Part shown: positions 30,479 through 40,979 of the stretch, piece after piece | How the letters are laid out: the number at the start of each line of letters is the position of its first letter | Numbering within the stretch: the stretch's first letter is position 1 | NCBI GenBank assembly: GCA_016929445.1 | Contig: JAFGIU010000131.1 | Coordinates: 1-41,568 of the forward strand | DNA from: Candidatus Omnitrophota bacterium | Lineage (GTDB): Bacteria > Omnitrophota > Gorgyraeia > JAFGIU01 | DNA: 41,568 nucleotides | Reading direction: 5' to 3' | Notes under the pieces: model-generated | Databases searched by the model: none | The model's input: the letters and a program-made list of their open reading frames with translations, nothing else | What the model was told of the DNA's origin: nothing | Position numbers and translations under genes: made by a program

Positions 30479-31882
30479 TCAGAAACCGGAGTGGGCTGGG
30501 CTTTCGAGGTCTTTCTCCAAGCCCAATTCTTTCATCTTGTTATAGAGGGTCGTCCGGTTGATTTGGAGCAGGACTGCGGCTTTTTTGCGGTTGCCCCCGG
30601 CCCGGCGCAGTGCGTCCAAAATGATCTTTCTTTCAGGGTCTTTGAGGGCATCCTTGAGAGAGAGTTCCCCTGTGGGAGTAAAGACTGCGTCTTCTCCTGC
30701 ACGCCTTAAAGTGTCCGGAAGGTCCTCTTCAGTGATGACATCGCCCTGGGTCAGGATCGTTGCGCGCTCGATGGCATTTTCCAGCTCGCGCACATTGCCC
30801 GGCCAGTTGTACTCGGAGATGCGCTTCAGGGCCTCCCGGGTAAAACCAACGATATTGCGGTCCATTTCTTTGCAGAATTTCTTGAGGAAATGTTCTGCCA
30901 AGAGCAAGGAGTCATCTCCCCGTTCTCTGAGAGGAGGGATGTCAATGGCGATGACGTTCAAACGGTAATAAAGGTCTTCCCTGAATTTACCTTTACGGAT
31001 CTCTTCCTGCAGGTCGACATTCGTGGCAGCGATCACTTTGACATCCACTTGGATACTCTGGCTATCCCCGACCTTTTCGAACTCGCGGTGCTGGAGAAAA
31101 CGCAGGAGCTTGACTTGAAGGTCCGGTGCAAAGGTGTCAATTTCATCCAATAGGATTGTTCCGCCTTGAGCCATTTCGAACCGCCCGACGCGGTTGTTGA
31201 TGGCAGAAGTAAAAGAGCCCTTCACATGTCCGAAGAGTTCGCTTTCCAGAATCTCACGCGGCAAGGCCCCGCAACTCACCTCCACAAAAGGTTTGTCCGC
31301 ACGCTTTGGGTCGCTCATATGGATTGCGTGTGCGACCATGCGCTTTCCTGTTCCGCTTTCTCCCCTCAAAAGAACCGTTGCGCGTGTTCCGGAAATCGAC
31401 TTGACCATCTTGTAAATGCTCTGCATTTTTTCGTGTCTGCCGACAATATCGCAGAAGCGGTTTTGCAGAGTTTTGATCTCAGCCTTGAGGCTGACGTTTT
31501 CGCGCATCAAGTCATGCTTGGTGAGGGCATTGCGGATGGTAGTCTTGATTTCATCGTCAACGATCGGCTTGGTGATATAGTCATAAGCCCCGTGGCGCAT
31601 GCATTCCACGGCGTTTTCGATACTGCCGTAGCCGGTTGCTACGATGACCTCGGTGTCGGTATTGCGCTTTCTTACTTCTTCCAGGATTGCCATGCCGTCC
31701 ATTTTGGGCATCTTGAGGTCAGCGATAATGACATCAAAGCCGTCTCGATCCAAAAGCTGCATGGCGTTTTCGCCGTTTAGCGCTGTGTCTACATCATAAC
31801 CTTCGAGCTTGAGGACCTCGTAGAGGGACTTGCGGATCAGCTCGTCGTCATCGACGACCAGAATACGTTTCTGTTCGATCAT
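30479..31882 (-). CDS. Sigma-54-dependent NtrC-family response regulator, 467 aa
   Basis: Three domains: a receiver (residues 1-120; acidic DDD at 11-13, phosphoacceptor Asp55 in IIADLKMP, Lys in YITKPI), an AAA+ sigma-54 activation domain (Walker A GESGTGKR, ESELFGH, Walker B GGTILLDEID, arginine-finger region GKFREDLYYRLNV), and a C-terminal Fis-type HTH (NRKKAAVLLQINRTTLYNKM). The sigma-54 contact loop, normally GAFTGA, reads GSFTSA here. Strong AGGAGGA precedes the ATG, which overlaps the kinase stop by one base. Neighbouring exosortase genes and two -24/-12 promoters suggest it controls PEP-CTERM expression, similar to PrsR; that is inference. Confidence 0.94.
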   Translation of the reverse strand: MIEQKRILVVDDDELIRKSLYEVLKLEGYDVDTALNGENAMQLLDRDGFDVIIADLKMPKMDGMAILEEVRKRNTDTEVIVATGYGSIENAVECMRHGAYDYITKPIVDDEIKTTIRNALTKHDLMRENVSLKAEIKTLQNRFCDIVGRHEKMQSIYKMVKSISGTRATVLLRGESGTGKRMVAHAIHMSDPKRADKPFVEVSCGALPREILESELFGHVKGSFTSAINNRVGRFEMAQGGTILLDEIDTFAPDLQVKLLRFLQHREFEKVGDSQSIQVDVKVIAATNVDLQEEIRKGKFREDLYYRLNVIAIDIPPLRERGDDSLLLAEHFLKKFCKEMDRNIVGFTREALKRISEYNWPGNVRELENAIERATILTQGDVITEEDLPDTLRRAGEDAVFTPTGELSLKDALKDPERKIILDALRRAGGNRKKAAVLLQINRTTLYNKMKELGLEKDLESPAHSGF

Positions 31883-32976
31883 TAGGATTCCTCCTGGCCT
31901 TCCCTGTTTTCATGCCCGGTTCTTTCATGAAGGATGCCGGCCACTTCGTCGGGTACGCAGGGAATGCGGAGCAGAAAAGTCGCTCCTTTGCCGGGCTCTG
32001 ATTCTACTTCAATCGAGCCGTCACAACGATCAATGATTTCTTTGCAGATGGCCAGGCCGAGCCCGGCTCCCTTACCAATTTCTTTGGTGGTGAAAAACGG
32101 TTCAAAAATGGAATCGCGGATATCTTCGGGGATTCCGCCGCCGGTATCGGAAACTGTAACGACGACATACCCGTTTACCCCTTTGCTGGAAATACGGACC
32201 GTTCCGCCGCCCGGCATGGAGTCAATCGCATTTTTCAGAAGGTTGGACACCACGTGCTCCATGCCGTAGTCGGTAATCGGAAGAAGTCCTTTCTCCAAAA
32301 ATGTGACAACCTGCACATCCCGGTGGAGGCGTTGGCAATCGGATAGCTTGATGGCCTCCTGAATGACTTCATTCACGTCCTGGATCGTGGGAGTGCTGAT
32401 TGTGGCGTGGCGTGAAAATTCCAGCAGGGACCGGATAATCTTGACCATCCGGGTGAGGCCCTGTCTTGCGTTCAAAAGGTACTCTTGGGGGCTGCCCTCG
32501 CCTTCCAGCAAATCCAAGGTCAAATTGACATATCGAATAACTCCATCCAAGGGATTATTCAGCTCATGGGCAACGCCGCTGGCGAGCTTTCCGATGGAAG
32601 CGAGCCGCTCAGAGCTAATCAAACGGCGTTCCAGATCCACGCGCTCAGAGATGTCTGAAAAGTAGAGAAGGAGCCCGTCTTCCAACGCCGAGATCCGGAC
32701 CCTGAAGATGCAGCCTGCCCGGGGGCCTGTTCCCTCAGGGCATCGAAGTTCCTGTTCTGAGTGGGATGCAGAGCCCGTGTTGAGGTTGGACCCGGGAAGG
32801 GGGCCTAGATCCTCCAAAAACGGCAGTACGGTCAAAATCGGGCGGCCTAAGGCCTGGGCTGCCTGAATGCCGAAATAGGTCTCCATGGCCCGGTTCCAGA
32901 GCAAAATAATGCCTTCGTGGCTCACAACCGTCAGGCCGTCGTGCAGGGCGTCAATGACGCGATTTCCCACAGTCAT
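31882..32976 (-). CDS. PAS-domain sensor histidine kinase, 364 aa
   Basis: Start ATG 32976 is chosen because GGAGGA lies seven bases upstream; an open frame to 33036 has no such site. A PAS domain fills about residues 4-115 (ALHDGLTVVSHEGIILLWNRAMETYFG). HisKA carries the phosphoacceptor His in LASGVAHELNNPLDG. The HATPase domain has the N box NLLKNAIDSMP, DTGGGIPEDI and the G2 box GKGAGLGLAICKEII. No membrane helix is seen, so the signal is probably cytoplasmic; it therefore differs from the multi-spanning PrsK kinases of classical PEP-CTERM systems. It is co-transcribed with the sigma-54 regulator. Confidence 0.92.
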   Translation of the reverse strand: MTVGNRVIDALHDGLTVVSHEGIILLWNRAMETYFGIQAAQALGRPILTVLPFLEDLGPLPGSNLNTGSASHSEQELRCPEGTGPRAGCIFRVRISALEDGLLLYFSDISERVDLERRLISSERLASIGKLASGVAHELNNPLDGVIRYVNLTLDLLEGEGSPQEYLLNARQGLTRMVKIIRSLLEFSRHATISTPTIQDVNEVIQEAIKLSDCQRLHRDVQVVTFLEKGLLPITDYGMEHVVSNLLKNAIDSMPGGGTVRISSKGVNGYVVVTVSDTGGGIPEDIRDSIFEPFFTTKEIGKGAGLGLAICKEIIDRCDGSIEVESEPGKGATFLLRIPCVPDEVAGILHERTGHENREGQEES

Positions 32977-33082
32977 CGGGAGCTCCTCCGTGCAAGAAGA
33001 GCCCTTCGAGTCTCTCATCAGGCTCATGGGGTTCATCCGGTTAGGTGGAAATAAGGTAACGAGATATCAAATGTTCTTAGTT

Positions 33083-33161: not shown

Positions 33162-33812
33162 TTAAGTTTGAGGCCCTGGACCGGTCATTTCCGTGCCCTG
33201 GAAGTGCCCCAGGAGAGCTTGCACGAGGTCTTGAAGTCGATTTTCTGCCTCATTGACCCCGGCCTCCCCTACAGGCACGGAGACACGCACCATGAGGCCC
33301 GAGGCAGGACGTCCTGCCAACTGGGCGCTGACCAGGCGAATCTGTTCCATATAGTAGTTGTGCTGCAATTTGCTGTCTGAAACAAACCAGTAGTAGGCCA
33401 GAAGAGCGGGAATCCCCTCCCGGGTGAGGAGGAGCCGGTTTACCGTGGATTCTTCCTTCTGGTGTGCGACACTGGCCACGCTTTTCTGCTGCACTTCATA
33501 ATTGGATCCCACGTAACAGAGTTCGGGCGGATGGAAGGCTGCCCGGTTTTCAGCAGCTTGAACTGCTGCCAGCCAGGCCAGGCCATATTCCGGGTGCTCG
33601 TACTCGAGGATGAGGACATCTTGGGTGCCCAGGAGCTCGAATGTGCGCTCATCCACGTCGACCGCATTTCCTTGCCAAAGGCCGATTTGTCTCGGAAGGG
33701 TCTCTGTGTCTTTGGCACGCGCCAAAGTGTTGGTATGGCTGAGGCGGGCCAGAAGAATGCAGGCTAGGGCCAAAAGGAGAACTGCCCCAAAGGCTAGGCG
33801 TTGGCTTCGCAT
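33162..33812 (-). CDS. epsI: EpsI-type exosortase-associated protein, 216 aa
   Basis: One N-terminal membrane helix (LAFGAVLLLALACILLARL) is followed by the EpsI/DUF3485 domain: PRQIGLWQGNAVDVDERTFELLG, AFHPPELCYVGSNYEV with the conserved Cys99, and LLAYYWFVSDSK. This domain is known only next to or fused with exosortases; its role is not settled but it is linked to processing or anchoring of PEP-CTERM proteins. GGAGG precedes the ATG. It overlaps the exosortase gene by 19 bases. As a stand-alone gene it differs from the fused exosortase-EpsI form. Confidence 0.92.
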   Translation of the reverse strand: MRSQRLAFGAVLLLALACILLARLSHTNTLARAKDTETLPRQIGLWQGNAVDVDERTFELLGTQDVLILEYEHPEYGLAWLAAVQAAENRAAFHPPELCYVGSNYEVQQKSVASVAHQKEESTVNRLLLTREGIPALLAYYWFVSDSKLQHNYYMEQIRLVSAQLAGRPASGLMVRVSVPVGEAGVNEAENRLQDLVQALLGHFQGTEMTGPGPQT

Positions 33813-35607: not shown

Positions 35608-36480
35608 TCAGCCCTGTTCTCCTGCATCCCGGGCGACCAGGAGCAGAAGAGCGGCACTCATTACGACAACAAAATCCACGACCACGGTCAATATCAGTGA
35701 AGCGGCATGCACCCAGAGCATGGTCTCCGGAACCGTATGGTTCATGAGAAGCACGAGGTTGCGGCGCAGCTGGAAGACTGGAAAAAGTAGAAATGTCGGT
35801 AAGACCACGAGCAGAAGGGTCGGGAGCCACAGCCGGCGCGCAGACTGGAGAGCACGCCCCACGCTTGGCAGAAAACGGCGGTCCCCGTAAAGATACGTGG
35901 GAATAAAATAGATCATGGCCGATTCAAAAACCAAAGCCACAAAAACGGAGATCCAGAATATACCGGTTTGCATGGTTGCCACCCCACCGGGCAGATTCCG
36001 GGCCCAGAGGTGGCCGACGAGTTTGCTGGCCAGCAAGCCTCCGAATTTGAAGATGCCGTTAATCAGAAGAAAATGAAAGATCCAGAGTGCAAATAACGGG
36101 ACATAGATTCGGATAGATTCGGTGAAGCTTTTCCAGGGATGAGGGAGGCGTTCGCTGTGGCTGTCCCGGAGCATCAGAATGGCTGTTGCAGTGAGAAGCA
36201 GGCCCAGTGTGGCTGAGATAACGGAATACCCCACGCCGTACATCTTGGGTATCACAACAAAATTAGCCGGGTAATGGAGATAGGCCTCGCCGAAAAATGC
36301 GCGAACCACCGGAGCCAACACAGTGGAAACCGGGGCCTGCGGGGCAAGATAGATGAGCGTCAGAAGGATTCCGTCCGCCAGTCCAACAATCAAGAAGGGA
36401 AGCAGGAGAGAGGGGTGCTTGCGAACTTCACTCTCAAGAATTCCCCAAATACGACGTACTGTACGATAGCTACGAATCAT
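35608..36480 (-). CDS. Multi-spanning membrane protein of unknown function, 290 aa
   Basis: Start ATG 36480 has AGGGAG just upstream; the in-frame ATG at 36492 lacks a site. After a basic start (MIRSYRTVRRIW) about six hydrophobic helices follow, including LLLPFLIVGLADGILLTLIYL and LTVVVDFVVVMSAALLLLV. No known family was recognised, and no catalytic motif is seen. It lies between the PEP-CTERM lipoprotein and the TPR lipoprotein, in the operon that ends with exosortase, so a role in this pathway is possible. Confidence 0.75.
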   Translation of the reverse strand: MIRSYRTVRRIWGILESEVRKHPSLLLPFLIVGLADGILLTLIYLAPQAPVSTVLAPVVRAFFGEAYLHYPANFVVIPKMYGVGYSVISATLGLLLTATAILMLRDSHSERLPHPWKSFTESIRIYVPLFALWIFHFLLINGIFKFGGLLASKLVGHLWARNLPGGVATMQTGIFWISVFVALVFESAMIYFIPTYLYGDRRFLPSVGRALQSARRLWLPTLLLVVLPTFLLFPVFQLRRNLVLLMNHTVPETMLWVHAASLILTVVVDFVVVMSAALLLLVARDAGEQG

Positions 36481-36594: not shown

Positions 36595-36978
36595 TTATCG
36601 TTGCTGCTTGCGCCGCTTGCGGGCCAATGCCAGCGCACCGGCCCCGAGCAGTAATAATGAAGCGGGCTCGGGATTGGTGACCACGTCCCGCTCACCGGTA
36701 AGGCTTGCAAGGCTTTGTGTGCCGCCTCCGGTCGCGCCGGGTTCATCACTGGATCCGGTGCCGGTGAAAGAGTCTTCCTCCGTGGATCCGTTACCAGGAG
36801 GAGGTGTGTAAGAATCCCCGCCCGGTCCATAGCTGGTTTCGAAATAGCCCACTGTCCCGGCGGCCACCGCAGCAGAGGTCAAATCTCCGGAAACAGAGCT
36901 TCCTCCGCCGCCCTTGCAAGCGCCCAGAGTCAAAGGCAGAGCGAACACCAATAGTATGTATTTCATCCGAACAGGCAT
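36595..36978 (-). CDS. PEP-CTERM protein that also carries a lipoprotein signal, 127 aa
   Basis: The C-terminus is a textbook PEP-CTERM sorting tail: NPEPASLLLLGAGALALARKRRKQQR (PEP motif, helix, basic end; given in pieces: PEPAS, LLLLGAGALALA, RKRRK). The N-terminus, MPVRMKYILLVF followed by LGAC, is a lipobox with Cys21. Between them lies low-complexity Gly/Ser/Thr/Pro sequence, which suits a surface stalk. Start ATG 36978 is preferred as GGGGGA lies six bases upstream; an ATG at 36984 is too close to it. It is the first gene after the sigma-54 promoter at 37104-37119 and leads into the exosortase operon. Confidence 0.85.
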   Translation of the reverse strand: MPVRMKYILLVFALPLTLGACKGGGGSSVSGDLTSAAVAAGTVGYFETSYGPGGDSYTPPPGNGSTEEDSFTGTGSSDEPGATGGGTQSLASLTGERDVVTNPEPASLLLLGAGALALARKRRKQQR

Positions 36979-37040
36979 TCTCATTCCCCCATAACACGCT
37001 GTTTAGTCTGAATGTTCAATGAGACTCTAGGCCTTTTTGC

Positions 37041-37103: not shown

Positions 37104-37119
37104 AGCAGATCCCGTGCCA
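37104..37119 (-). promoter_or_regulatory. Sigma-54 (-24/-12) promoter before the PEP-CTERM lipoprotein and exosortase genes
   Basis: On the minus strand the sequence is TGGCACGGGATCTGCT, matching the consensus TGGCACG-N4-TTGCT at all but one position, with GG and GC at the required spacing. The start of transcription would be near 37093, about 115 bases before the ATG at 36978. The nearby NtrC-type regulator is the obvious candidate activator. Confidence 0.8.
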
Positions 37120-37348: not shown

Positions 37349-37750
37349 ATGGATGAACCTGAGCAAGACTCGCCGCTGGCGGACCGGCGCAAGGCAGACC
37401 GTTTGCCGGCGCCCTTGAGATTGTACTACGAGGTGCTGGACAAGGCAGGCTCGGTCCAGCTGGAGTGCGAGGTGAGAGCCGCGAACCTGAGCGGGTCAGG
37501 ACTGAAATTCCCCTGTCCCAGGTTGCTTGAGACCGGGACACGGCTGAGGGTCCAGATGTGGCTGCCCGGCCAAGAAGAGCCCGTCGTGGCGGGTGCCCTT
37601 GTTGTCTGGAGCCAAGCCCTGACAGATCCGGAAACAGGCAGCCCTGCGGGCGCTGATTTGGGGGTGCACCTTGAGGAAATGCCGCCGGACGCGGCCCACA
37701 GGTATTTCCAGTTTATCTGTGACCAGCTTCTCACCCGGATGGAGGGTTGA
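37349..37750 (+). CDS. PilZ domain protein, 133 aa
   Basis: A PilZ domain with RxxxR at Arg14-Arg18 (RRKADR) and NxSxxG at Asn46-Gly51 (NLSGSG), so c-di-GMP binding is expected. A later beta segment GADLGVHLEEM completes the fold. AAGGAG precedes the ATG. There is no membrane segment. It shares an operon with the FeeM-like acyltransferase, whose ATG lies three bases after this stop, and is divergent from the exosortase operon, suggesting a c-di-GMP input into surface lipid or polysaccharide formation. Confidence 0.87.
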   Translation: MDEPEQDSPLADRRKADRLPAPLRLYYEVLDKAGSVQLECEVRAANLSGSGLKFPCPRLLETGTRLRVQMWLPGQEEPVVAGALVVWSQALTDPETGSPAGADLGVHLEEMPPDAAHRYFQFICDQLLTRMEG

Positions 37751-37752
37751 CC

Positions 37753-38583
37753 ATGGCGTTTGCAGGCCCTTCCGCCTCCGATTCTTCGTGCCGCAAGTTT
37801 CTCAAAAATATTGAGTTCCGCGTGGCTCAAAATGCCGGGGATCTGGAACAGGCCTATGCCCTGGTTCACAAAGAGTACCTGAGCCGGGGCTATACCCATC
37901 CCAGCGATTCCGGAGTCAAGGTCTCCATTTACAACGCGCTTCCCACAACCACCACGTTTGTCGCTGTAGCCGAAGGACAAGTCATCGGGACGGTCAGTTT
38001 GATCGGGGACAGTACCCTGGGCGTTCCGATGGACCGCATCTACAAGCCCGAGTTGGATGAGCTGAGAAGCCGGAATCTGAAATTGGCTGAGGCCTCCATG
38101 CTGGCTGTGCGGAATGACCTCTTCGGCAAGGGGGTGTTCTTAATGCTCAACTCCAAGAAGCTCTCCCTGGTATTCAATCTCTTTAAGCTGGCCTTTGACT
38201 ATATTCACAATGTGGCCGGCTATGATGAGGTGGTGATTGCGGTGAACCCCAAGCATGATCTGGTTTACCGCTTCCTTTTCTTTGAGGAGCTGGGGCCTTT
38301 ACGGTACTACGAGTCGGCCAACGGGGCCCCGGCCATTGCCAAGCATATCAGCGTCCGGCAGGTCCAGGAGCTGAAAGACCAATGCCTGCTCAGCGGCCGG
38401 CGGGGTCTTTACAAGATGTTCTTCGGCCATCAATTCCCCCAAGAGTCTCTCCAACCCACTCCCCTGTTTTCCCAAAGGGAATTTGAGAATTTCTTTGTGC
38501 AAAAGAGCGCTGTCCTGGCCAAGGCCGATCCGGCTCAGTTGGAGCACCTGCGTTCCGTGTATCCCCGGCTCAAGATCGGATAA
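37753..38583 (+). CDS. FeeM-like N-acyltransferase (GNAT-type), 276 aa
   Basis: After a short polar start, the segment FRVAQNAGDLEQAYALVHKEYLSRGY and FVAVAEGQVIGTVSLIGD resemble the N-acyl amino acid synthase FeeM/GNAT group, which includes acyltransferases tied to exosortase/PEP-CTERM loci. The conserved-looking block LAEASMLAVRNDLFGKG and the region DEVVIAVNPKHDLVYRFLFFEELG follow. The C-terminal 60 residues are a non-conserved helical tail. ATG 37753 has GGAGGG six bases upstream; TTG 37747 overlaps the PilZ stop. No membrane segment. Substrate unknown, likely an acyl-ACP and an amine. Confidence 0.7.
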   Translation: MAFAGPSASDSSCRKFLKNIEFRVAQNAGDLEQAYALVHKEYLSRGYTHPSDSGVKVSIYNALPTTTTFVAVAEGQVIGTVSLIGDSTLGVPMDRIYKPELDELRSRNLKLAEASMLAVRNDLFGKGVFLMLNSKKLSLVFNLFKLAFDYIHNVAGYDEVVIAVNPKHDLVYRFLFFEELGPLRYYESANGAPAIAKHISVRQVQELKDQCLLSGRRGLYKMFFGHQFPQESLQPTPLFSQREFENFFVQKSAVLAKADPAQLEHLRSVYPRLKIG

Positions 38584-38683: not shown

Positions 38684-38732
38684 GCAAAAAAAAGAAACAG
38701 CCGGCACAATCCTTGAGGATTGCGCCGGCTGT
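38684..38732 (-). terminator. Strong factor-independent terminator after the PEP-CTERM gene
   Basis: A 17-bp stem (38697-38713 with 38716-38732) closes on a tiny loop. On the minus strand it has only a G-U wobble, and it is followed by TTTCTTTTTTTT (38684-38696), so it ends transcripts of the gene at 38782-39939. Confidence 0.92.
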
Positions 38733-38781
38733 TCTTGTACAGAGGGGATAAAACCCTATTGTCTCTTAATGTACTTGCCTA

Positions 38782-39939
38782 TTAGAGGCGGAAGCGATTA
38801 CGGCGTCCGACCAGAGCCGCGCCCAGAAGACCCATGCCAAACAGGGCTGTGGTTGCAGGCTCAGGAATCACCGGGCCACCCTCGAGAGTCGGAGGGGAAC
38901 CTAGTGGCGGATAACCGAAGGTGAATGTCGAAGGATCGTCCACGCCGCCACTTCTGGAATCCGGGTCGCCAAACACGAGGCTTCCCCCAATATCCCAGGT
39001 GCTCTCGCCAAAGAGGCCCAAGCCGCTGCCGGCAAAAGCCTTGAGAGGGCTGTTAATCCCGATGAAGTTGGACTCGCCTTCGATGTAGTACTTGACGCCG
39101 CCGATGATCACGAAGTTAGGCTCATCCACAATGACTCCGCCCACAACGATCGGGGATGCCCAAGACTCATTCAGGAGCATGATGGACCCACCGGCTGTGT
39201 CGTAGGTGAGCTCCAGGAAGAGCTCTTCATTGGGATCGCCTGCAGTGCCCAGGCTGTTGTACAGCCCGTAGTCGCCGTTGGTGGGGTCAAAACCGGCGGT
39301 GGGCAGCGGCAGTGTTCCGCTCGGATCAAAGTCCGGGGTGGTGTCTTCCACCAGCTTCAGGGACCCTGTTCCTGGCACGAAGTTGGTTTGGATATTGCCA
39401 ACCCCAACACCGGGCGTAATGGAGGAGATAATCAGAGAGTTCAGCGTGTAGGTGAGCTGAGAGCTGATATCATCCGGATTGCCCAAGCTGGAGAGGGCCA
39501 AGGTCGGTCCGCCACCCAGGGCGCTGGTCACGGTGCTGACCGTGCCCACTCCAAAAACTTCGAGGCCGCCGTTGGAGGCCAAATAGTCGTTGAAGCGGAC
39601 GATGTCCGCAGCGGAGCCAAAGATGTCGTTCATGGCGACCGGTGCAATGTCGCCAGGACCCATGTGTGTGACAACGGCGCCGCCGCTGATCACCGCGTAG
39701 CGTCCGCCGTCCAGCGGATTGGTCCAGTCCTTGTCAAACCCGAGCGCCCAATTGATGGCACCCCCGCCGATCCATCCGAGCTCAAACTGCCCGATGTCGG
39801 AGGTAAACTTGATATCCTCGCCCGTGAAGTTGGCGCCGATTGCCGAAGAGAGCGGGCTTGCTTGCGCCCCTCCACTTACGGTCAAAGCGACCAAGACAGC
39901 AACGAAGGCAAGGCTTACCTTACCAAATGTTACTTTCAT
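38782..39939 (-). CDS. PEP-CTERM sorting domain protein, 385 aa
   Basis: An N-terminal signal peptide (VSLAFVAVLVALTVSGGAQA) is followed by about 320 residues of Gly/Asn/Asp-rich, beta-type sequence with no recognised domain. The tail VIPEPATTALFGMGLLGAAL then GRRNRFRL is a classic PEP-CTERM signal for exosortase. It should be secreted and processed at the membrane, possibly remaining in the extracellular matrix. AGAGGGGAG precedes the ATG. It starts 21 bases after the sugar transferase gene, so the sigma-54 promoter at 40771-40786 should drive both; a strong terminator follows. Confidence 0.9.
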   Translation of the reverse strand: MKVTFGKVSLAFVAVLVALTVSGGAQASPLSSAIGANFTGEDIKFTSDIGQFELGWIGGGAINWALGFDKDWTNPLDGGRYAVISGGAVVTHMGPGDIAPVAMNDIFGSAADIVRFNDYLASNGGLEVFGVGTVSTVTSALGGGPTLALSSLGNPDDISSQLTYTLNSLIISSITPGVGVGNIQTNFVPGTGSLKLVEDTTPDFDPSGTLPLPTAGFDPTNGDYGLYNSLGTAGDPNEELFLELTYDTAGGSIMLLNESWASPIVVGGVIVDEPNFVIIGGVKYYIEGESNFIGINSPLKAFAGSGLGLFGESTWDIGGSLVFGDPDSRSGGVDDPSTFTFGYPPLGSPPTLEGGPVIPEPATTALFGMGLLGAALVGRRNRFRL

Positions 39940-39960: not shown

Positions 39961-40659
39961 TTATTTAATTCTTACTTCTGCTAAAGTCCGGCCCTTGCCC
40001 AGGAACACACCCAGAATCAAGGTCGCGGTCTTCCAAATGATTTGCAAATCCAAAAGCAGGCACATACGGCGGACGTAGAGAAGATCATAGCGGAGCTTCT
40101 TCTTCACATCCTCAACCGTGCAGTCGTACCGGTAATGAATTTGCGCCAAGCCGGTAAGTCCGGGTTTGACCAAGAGACGCTGATCATAGCTGGGGACCTG
40201 CTTGTTGAGCTCCTCAGCAAAGGCCGGTCTCTCCGGTCTGGGACCTACCAAACTCATACTCCCTTCCAGCACATTGAAGAGCTGGGGAAGTTCGTCCAGG
40301 TGCGTGCGCCGCAGGAAACCGCCGATCCGGGTCACGCGCGGGTCGTCTGTCTGCGCCCACTGAGGCCCGTTGCTTTCTGCATCCACTCGCATGGTCCTGA
40401 ATTTGTAGATGGTGAACTCGGCTCCGCCCTTGCCCAGGCGTGCCTGCTTGTAAAGCACGGGCCCTTGAGAACTGAATTTCACTGCCAAGGCCACCAGCCC
40501 CATCAAAGGTGCTGCCAGGAGAATTCCCATTCCCGCACCCAGGATGTCCAAACCGCGCTTGAGCACCAGACGGACCTGAAGGTTAAGACCCTCCGGATGT
40601 CCGAAGCTCTGCTGCAGTCTGTATAAGGGAGTTTCTCGAAAAGTTAATGCTGCATCCAT
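39961..40659 (-). CDS. Undecaprenyl-phosphate sugar transferase (exopolysaccharide initiation), 232 aa
   Basis: This is a short bacterial sugar transferase: one membrane helix ([30 protein letters not shown] split across residues 33-62), then the catalytic core with [27 protein letters not shown], and GLTGLAQI. Such enzymes move a sugar-1-phosphate onto undecaprenyl phosphate to start exopolysaccharide or glycan repeat units. It lacks the long multi-helix N-terminal part of WbaP/WcaJ. The gene is next to a PEP-CTERM gene and a family 2 glycosyltransferase, the usual exosortase/EPS setting. Confidence 0.93.
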
Positions 40660-40979
40660 GCTGGACTTCTACTCCTCGCTAACGGGTTTCAAACGACTTT
40701 GTTTCAGTATGAGATCAATCATAGGGTCGTACTCAGGCACAGCATCTCTGAATGAGTACCCCATATACCTAGCAGCTTGTATGCCAATGCCCGGCGACCC
40801 AAAACGGGCAACTTATTTCACTCTATAACCTGTTGTTTAACTTAGAGTTAGGTGTTATTCTGATCGTATTCTTACGTACAATTTACCAATTTTACAAAGA
40901 AACACTGCATGACTTCGGAGCTCCATTACGGATCGTGTTGTCTGAGCGCCTCACTTCGGGAGTTTGGAGTCTGAATCCT
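40660..40979. other. 320-base spacer with a sigma-54 promoter
   Basis: No gene is seen. Besides the -24/-12 promoter (40771-40786), there is AACAGGTT on the minus strand (40827-40834), a TGCCCG/CGGGCA inverted repeat (40788-40810) directly upstream of the promoter, and ACTCTA/TAGAGT arms around 40818-40846. Confidence 0.6.
40771..40786 (-). promoter_or_regulatory. Sigma-54 (-24/-12) promoter before the sugar transferase and PEP-CTERM genes
   Basis: On the minus strand TGGCATACAAGCTGCT keeps the invariant GG and GC at the correct spacing and most other consensus bases. The start would lie near 40760, about 100 bases before the sugar transferase ATG at 40659. Confidence 0.7.

Follow-up and report, generated by a model that had tools for sequence, protein, structure and literature searches.

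PEP-CTERM substrates, as described by the models TIGR02595 and PF07589, end in a PEP motif, a helix and a basic end; exosortase chemistry and the destination of PEP-CTERM proteins are poorly known. Sigma-54, PrsK, PrsR and PrsT are tied to PEP-CTERM genes in Proteobacteria, and among the species discussed in the excerpt of that work, the sigma-54 motif was seen solely in Proteobacteria (PMC1569441). According to the excerpt of a second study, pepA is RpoN-dependent and adjoins prsT, the TPR protein PrsT is needed for floc formation, and, in Aquincola, the PEP-CTERM protein PepA moves polymer from the soluble to the bound state (PMC9850573). Excerpts of two further reports describe sorting of lipidated proteins: E. 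coli NlpE in inner-membrane transit is read by Cpx (PMC6538781), and surface sorting in the MYXO-CTERM/myxosortase system involves the lipidation of a Cys as well as the loss of a C-terminal helix, with one C-terminal Cys proposed for the two steps (PMC11980579).

We analyzed a 41,568-nt contig of an Omnitrophota draft assembly (2.43 Mb, 97% complete), JAFGIU010000131.1; this whole stretch is referred to as the window. A compact run of minus-strand genes in the window encodes a short protein with a lipobox and a PEP-CTERM tail (lipoPEP), a polytopic membrane protein, a TPR protein, an exosortase, EpsI, a histidine kinase and a response regulator. The features are as follows.

30479..31882, minus strand: response regulator of NtrC type; receiver and AAA+ (GSFTSA) domains, Fis-like end (domains read from sequence)
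31882..33036, minus strand: PAS-domain histidine kinase; no evident membrane helix
33083..33110, minus strand: sigma-70-like promoter upstream of the kinase gene, TTGACA-16-TATATT (suggestive)
33162..33812, minus strand: EpsI; TIGR02914 69.8 bits (cut-off 42.8); PF11984
33794..34663, minus strand: exosortase, EpsH family; TIGR02602 165.1 bits (cut-off 105.55); PF09721 212.8 bits
34665..35594, minus strand: TPR-repeat protein with its own lipobox LSGC; long ORF from GTG 35657, ATG 35594 the likelier start
35608..36480, minus strand: polytopic membrane protein, possibly CysZ-like in fold; no Pfam or NCBIfam match
36595..36984, minus strand: lipoPEP gene, stop included; 129 aa from ATG 36984; lipoPEP-profile match 1.6e-15
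36598..36672, minus strand: PEP-CTERM tail of lipoPEP; PEP motif at 36664-36672, hydrophobic helix, basic end
36673..36915, minus strand: low-complexity linker of lipoPEP (from sequence); 81 residues, Gly/Ser/Thr-rich
36916..36927, minus strand: lipobox L-G-A-C of lipoPEP (from sequence); Cys is residue 23 counted from ATG 36984, +2 residue Lys
37104..37119, minus strand: sigma-54-type (-24/-12) promoter-like site TGGCACGGGATCTGCT, 119 nt before ATG 36984
38695..38734, minus strand: terminator-like hairpin behind the ordinary PEP-CTERM gene, closing the second unit
38782..39939, minus strand: ordinary PEP-CTERM protein (IPEPATT), no lipobox (curated models and sequence)
39961..40659, minus strand: initiating sugar transferase (PF02397), head of the second unit
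40771..40786, minus strand: sigma-54-type site TGGCATACAAGCTGCT, the second in the window, upstream of the sugar transferase

LipoPEP resembles other PEP-CTERM substrates in its C-terminal PEP, helix and basic end and in the presence of exosortase and EpsI genes in its operon, but differs from ordinary ones in having a lipobox instead of a signal peptidase I-type signal peptide, almost no mature domain, and N, Q, D or H before PEP. PepA differs from lipoPEP as well, being described in the excerpt of PMC9850573 with an N-terminal signal peptide and with no mention of a lipobox; with the floc_PepA model NF033554, the window lipoPEP scored below the cut-off (24.6 vs 80 bits). The combination of a kinase, an NtrC-type regulator, a TPR lipoprotein and sigma-54-type sites with PEP-CTERM genes recalls the PrsK/PrsR/PrsT system and pepA-prsT, where a PEP-CTERM gene likewise adjoins a TPR gene. 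However, the window kinase and TPR protein fall below the PrsK (TIGR02916, 92.9 vs 300 bits) and PrsT (TIGR02917, 33.0 vs 312.2 bits) cut-offs, the kinase looks soluble, and the Omnitrophota cassette adds the CysZ-fold-like protein and lipoPEP. The likeness to NlpE and CpxAR, as presented in the excerpt of PMC6538781, is one of proposed logic, in which a lipoprotein retained at the inner membrane informs a two-component system about sorting; no homology is claimed, the device holding lipoPEP would be the exosortase tail, and the kinase would be cytoplasmic. LipoPEP also differs from MYXO-CTERM proteins in that its two signals lie at opposite ends.

The lipoPEP family and its two signals

The stop codon of the window lipoPEP gene occupies 36595-36597, and translation could start at ATG 36984 or at ATG 36978 (127 aa). 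The latter, which is the start taken in an earlier, sequence-only reading of this DNA, has a Shine-Dalgarno-like run, GGGGGA, about 6 nt upstream, a better spacing than that of ATG 36984. The N-terminus, MRMPVRMKYILLVFALPLTLGAC-K, consists of a basic n-region, a hydrophobic h-region and the lipobox LGAC ending in Cys, the features by which bacterial lipoproteins are recognized from sequence; the Ala at -1 is less usual (Gly in 56 of 61 family rows). Solely low-complexity G/S/T/P/E sequence separates the lipobox from the tail, NPEPASLLLLGAGALALARKRRKQQR, which has the PEP motif, the helix and the basic end, scores above the cut-offs of TIGR02595 (25.0 bits, cut-off 16) and PF07589 (25.6 bits, cut-off 20.7), and carries N before PEP, the mark of a tail subclass. 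The sequence-only reading had noted the LGAC N-terminus and the full PEP-CTERM tail with low-complexity sequence between them, and the sequence and the curated cut-offs bear this out.

Both signals could be served in this host because its genome encodes Lgt (PF01790, 230.3 bits), LspA (PF01252, 131 bits) and a full-length LolC/E-like protein (314.9 bits, under the curated 362). There are two PF09721 (exosortase) matches in the genome, one of them inside the lipoPEP operon. The second exosortase is encoded with EpsI on another contig (G000:C78; L252:5736-7263, plus strand), just downstream of a gene for a PEP-like protein (VAPEPFGG); the lipoPEP cassette genes are absent from the stretch fetched around it. 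At least six PEP-CTERM proteins of the genome are above the cut-off (6 of the 8 among the matches listed), and among these six, only the window lipoPEP has a lipobox.

When the window lipoPEP alone was compared with 59 genomes, 20 gave matches at E <= 10, which were weak and mainly confined to the tail. Short proteins of four genomes (G051, G011, G022 and G037) follow the same plan, that is, a lipobox, a Gly tract, a linker and an H-[NT]-PEP tail, and the neighboring genes in these four loci repeat those of the window. We read 108 stretches around the membrane-protein gene, and searched 384 genomes of the class with a profile built from 34 lipoPEP proteins. Near-full-length matches were found in 56 of the 384 genomes, or 58 with two partial ones (G198 and G135 included; G139, cut at a contig edge, left out). 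Subtraction of two ordinary PEP-CTERM frames of locus L145 from the 62 profile matches leaves 60 members in 58 loci, 35 of them from loci picked via the membrane protein or the first relatives; counts over 61 rows still include one ordinary PEP-CTERM frame of L145. All members belong to one Omnitrophota class and, by a hand count from the profile matches, to 22 GTDB families; in 364 genomes of the phylum, there was no near-full-length lipoPEP outside this class among the matches listed, most of which came from the same class. Usually, there is one copy per genome. Tandem lipoPEP pairs occur in two loci (L115:6137-6794 and L133:6191-7017, both minus strand), and in L181:5466-5947 (plus strand; genome G135), the lipobox and the PEP tail are in different frames, reflecting either a broken gene or an assembly error.

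The relatives are only 16-34% identical to the window protein yet keep the Cys and the PEP tail; in the 34-row alignment, a set partly selected on the lipobox, Cys 23 and PEP 105-107 are the sole invariant columns. At E <= 0.01, 27 of the 34 relatives match TIGR02595, and the search for a whole-protein family in NCBIfam (release 20.0) at the same threshold returned for the 34 members only PEP-CTERM-type families and a few single weak ones. The sequences make it very likely that these are members of a conserved Omnitrophota family of very small proteins with both signals. In the open subset of PubMed Central, we found no paper describing PEP-CTERM proteins with a lipobox; by this search, the dual-signal family is apparently undescribed so far. 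The conservation of the Cys and of the PEP tail, which the sequence-only reading had named as a check, thus holds at both ends in the 60 members, with one Cys-less relative (L093:181-729, minus strand). The latter is a Gly-rich protein with an HNPEP tail from genome G009, where no exosortase was found.

The lipobox had helped in selecting the 34 rows of the alignment, so the Cys is more fairly judged from a census of loci chosen by a neighboring gene or as first relatives, without selection on Cys. The lipobox is present in 30 of the 35 short PEP-tail frames compared with 4 of the 93 long ones (Fisher p 8e-20), on which grounds a chance lipobox is rejected. By our reading, five short frames lack the lipobox: L120 and L145, for which the start was placed within the gene, the spurious L150, the frame-broken L181 and one true exception, L130, a short ordinary PEP-CTERM frame; the four long frames with a lipobox are L041, where the Cys is internal, and L118, L135 and L146, which have an AxA-type site just after the Cys. 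Under a stricter rule applied earlier, the counts were 29 of 47 for the short and 5 of 122 for the long frames; the 18 short misses under this rule were mostly contig-cut or spurious frames, although L042 and L103 are true members.

The tail differs from that of other substrates as well. PEP directly follows N, Q, D or H in 49 of the 61 lipoPEP rows, a count that the lipoPEP profile could have inflated by favoring such tails, compared with 1 of the 115 ordinary PEP-CTERM tails of the same loci, of which 94 have V or I in this position. In the census, which was made without the profile, 25 of the 27 [NQDH]PEP frames have a lipobox vs 9 of the 101 others. Judging by these sequences, the lipoPEP tails form a PEP-CTERM subclass. 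In E. coli, Asp at +2 keeps lipoproteins in the inner membrane; given this rule and the lack of Asp at +2 in all 61 lipoPEP rows, only the C-terminal helix would hold lipoPEP there. The family linkers are 27% Gly and 18% Ser, and the distance from Cys to PEP is 20-104 residues. The tether function, which the sequence-only reading suggested beside that of a dedicated test substrate for the case that both signals work, is, if it means spanning the periplasm, unlikely for most members because the median distance of 51.5 residues corresponds to at most about 18 nm when fully stretched.

Gene neighborhood and sigma-54-type sites

The window exosortase carries the motifs CSG, NFLR and HDASG, which match the three conserved motifs given in the excerpt of PMC1569441. 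It belongs to the general family TIGR02602 and not to XrtA (TIGR03109, 174.8 vs 208 bits). Beside the exosortase locus (37349-38583, plus strand), a divergent gene pair encodes a PilZ-domain protein and an N-acyl amino acid synthase of the FeeM type (PF21926, 131.3 bits).

Two layouts recur in the loci. In the first, the order is exosortase, EpsI, sugar transferase, PEP-CTERM genes (in some cases), lipoPEP, membrane protein, TPR protein, kinase, regulator and a PocR-like gene; in the second, which includes the window, it is lipoPEP, membrane protein, TPR protein, exosortase, EpsI, kinase and regulator. The distal genes are those we take to be PocR-like and RpoN from a reading of their sequences rather than from a family search. 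The membrane protein is encoded by the next gene in 37 of the 60 lipoPEP members, an exosortase lies within 6 kb in 43, a response regulator is found within 6 kb downstream in 37, and none of the cassette is present in the fetched stretch in 12; these gene-order counts partly reflect common descent. Many of the loci entered the set because of their membrane-protein gene; a fairer picture comes from the 25 loci that the profile search contributed, of which, by our reading, 13 have an exosortase within 6 kb. The sequence-only reading had placed lipoPEP first in the exosortase operon and had pointed to orthologs at the head of such operons: in the window, lipoPEP indeed heads the minus-strand run, and the head position recurs in relatives, but the commonest next genes are those of the membrane-protein/TPR pair, not the exosortase.

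Across the 384 genomes of the class, an exosortase is found in 54 of the 58 genomes with lipoPEP vs 62 of the 326 without it (p 2.8e-28); the corresponding figures for the membrane protein are 52 of 58 and 64 of 326 (p 4.7e-25). Conversely, when no more than 12-13 candidates were scored per genome, lipoPEP was detected in at least 50 of the 93 genomes that have both the exosortase and the membrane protein; it went undetected in the others, which suggests that the cassette can function in its absence. In four loci (L194:3376-5151, L247:5234-7102, L190:1717-3573 and L184:5956-7725), the membrane and TPR proteins are fused in one frame of 590-623 codons, which suggests joint action of the two. 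For most kinases of the loci (65 of 73), no membrane helix is predicted, and therefore, a membrane partner would be needed for sensing.

The membrane-protein profile was found in 116 of the 384 class genomes, and 12 of its 15 named relatives are from Omnitrophota or Omnitrophica, for example, JAGVEL010000009.1 (L080) and JACQQV010000021.1 (L085). No good Pfam match was obtained for 16 members, the best single one being 0.00025 with PF10110. The AlphaFold2 model (pLDDT 88.8) is closest to CysZ (3tx3_B; Z 14.4, rmsd 4.1, 220 aligned), followed by choline-transporter-like proteins. Given that Z values up to about 13 may be incidental for helical bundles and that Foldseek gave an E of 0.79, the likeness of the model to CysZ is only a hint of a CysZ-like fold.

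The sigma-54-type pattern TGGYAYNNNNNHTGCW occurs twice in the window vs 0.52 expected, and two or more occurrences were seen in 10 of 100 shuffles. Both sites head the units where such control would be expected, namely, lipoPEP, and the sugar transferase with the ordinary PEP-CTERM gene. Over all loci, there are 107 sites vs 23 in simple base shuffles, which are laxer than dinucleotide shuffles; 53 of the sites are near a sugar transferase and 19 near lipoPEP. At a strict threshold, such sites were found for 19 of 60 lipoPEP genes, 20 of 114 ordinary PEP-CTERM genes and 5 of 74 exosortase genes. The 98 stretches upstream of sigma-54-type sites are enriched in heptamers, such as TCAACAC and GTCATAG, which are possible activator sites. 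The strict-threshold and heptamer analyses likewise used simple base shuffles as the control. Among the 90 regulators of the loci, 54 have the motif GAFTGA, 70 have GAFTGA or GSFTGA, and 15 have no such motif; the motif of the window regulator is GSFTSA, not GAFTGA. RpoN is present in the window genome as two pieces at contig edges. The sigma-70-like site before the kinase gene is suggestive and would fit regulators that are made constantly.

Possible roles of lipoPEP

The sequences show both sorting signals and their conservation, the distinct type of tail, the order of the genes and the sites of the sigma-54 type; from these, we infer a course of lipidation, cleavage, localization and sensing for lipoPEP. 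The protein would be exported by Sec and lipidated at the Cys via Lgt and LspA, and its PEP-CTERM helix would keep the C-terminus in the inner membrane until the exosortase cuts at or near NPEP. After the cut, lipoPEP, having no Asp at +2, would be free to exit the inner membrane through a Lol-type pathway; as release would need the cut, the final reach of lipoPEP would depend on the exosortase. The adjoining CysZ-fold-like/TPR pair would sense whether lipoPEP is retained or cleaved and signal to the co-encoded kinase and sigma-54 activator, and the activator would control how strongly the lipoPEP operon itself, the sugar transferase and the PEP-CTERM proteins are expressed. We favor this sentinel mechanism, in which a substrate with two keys is read by the cassette much as NlpE is by Cpx, but put the whole of it forward tentatively. 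The broader claim drawn from it, that a nearly domainless, dedicated substrate couples exosortase activity to sigma-54 transcription and so reports whether sorting keeps up, is possible but doubtful. The gene context of lipoPEP suggests one way in which cells might sense exosortase output. Furthermore, as a natural substrate that is small, carries a lipid handle, has almost no folded part and offers a distinct cleavage context, lipoPEP would allow both exosortase chemistry and the destination of the product to be measured directly, and it adds to a little-studied phylum a new marker family and a recurrent cassette of membrane protein, TPR protein, kinase and activator.

The main rival of this sensing role is that of a staple: through the exosortase, the freshly cut C-terminus would become bonded to an exopolysaccharide or a glycolipid, and lipoPEP, with its N-terminal lipid in the outer membrane, would tie the polymer to the cell through the flexible Gly/Ser chain. 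Two attachment signals without a folded domain between them would suit such a fastener, as would the sigma-54-type control common to lipoPEP and the sugar transferase and the shift of polymer from soluble to bound by PepA in Aquincola (PMC9850573, excerpt). However, the closest neighbors of lipoPEP are the membrane/TPR pair and regulators, not polymer export genes, and a protein usually encoded once per genome is more readily seen as a reporter than as a bulk fastener. Moreover, we know of no exosortase that has been shown to join a substrate to a polymer. On balance, we regard this role as somewhat unlikely.

Alternatively, lipoPEP could be a structural lipoprotein that, together with the CysZ-fold-like and TPR proteins, functions in the export of polymer or protein and senses nothing. 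The membrane/TPR pair is the commonest neighbor of lipoPEP, and the TPR protein PrsT is required for floc formation (PMC9850573, excerpt), but this possibility, which we consider unlikely, explains neither the exosortase tail on a nearly domainless protein nor the linkage with a kinase and a sigma-54 activator.

Another role, as a resident decoy or brake, would follow if NPEP were bound but poorly cut, such that the doubly anchored lipoPEP occupies the exosortase and limits its activity. The residue before PEP does differ sharply from that of the ordinary substrates of the same loci, and the position at the head of the operon implies co-expression; the lipobox would nevertheless be superfluous for a brake, and this role appears distinctly improbable.

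Finally, it is highly improbable that lipoPEP is an ordinary PEP-CTERM protein in which a chance Cys ends a signal peptidase I signal peptide, as might be imagined from L118, L135 and L146, three loci with a long PEP-CTERM protein in which an AxA-type site directly follows a lipobox-like N-terminal Cys, given that the Cys is kept in short PEP proteins of 22 GTDB families and that the lipobox is linked to the tail subclass.
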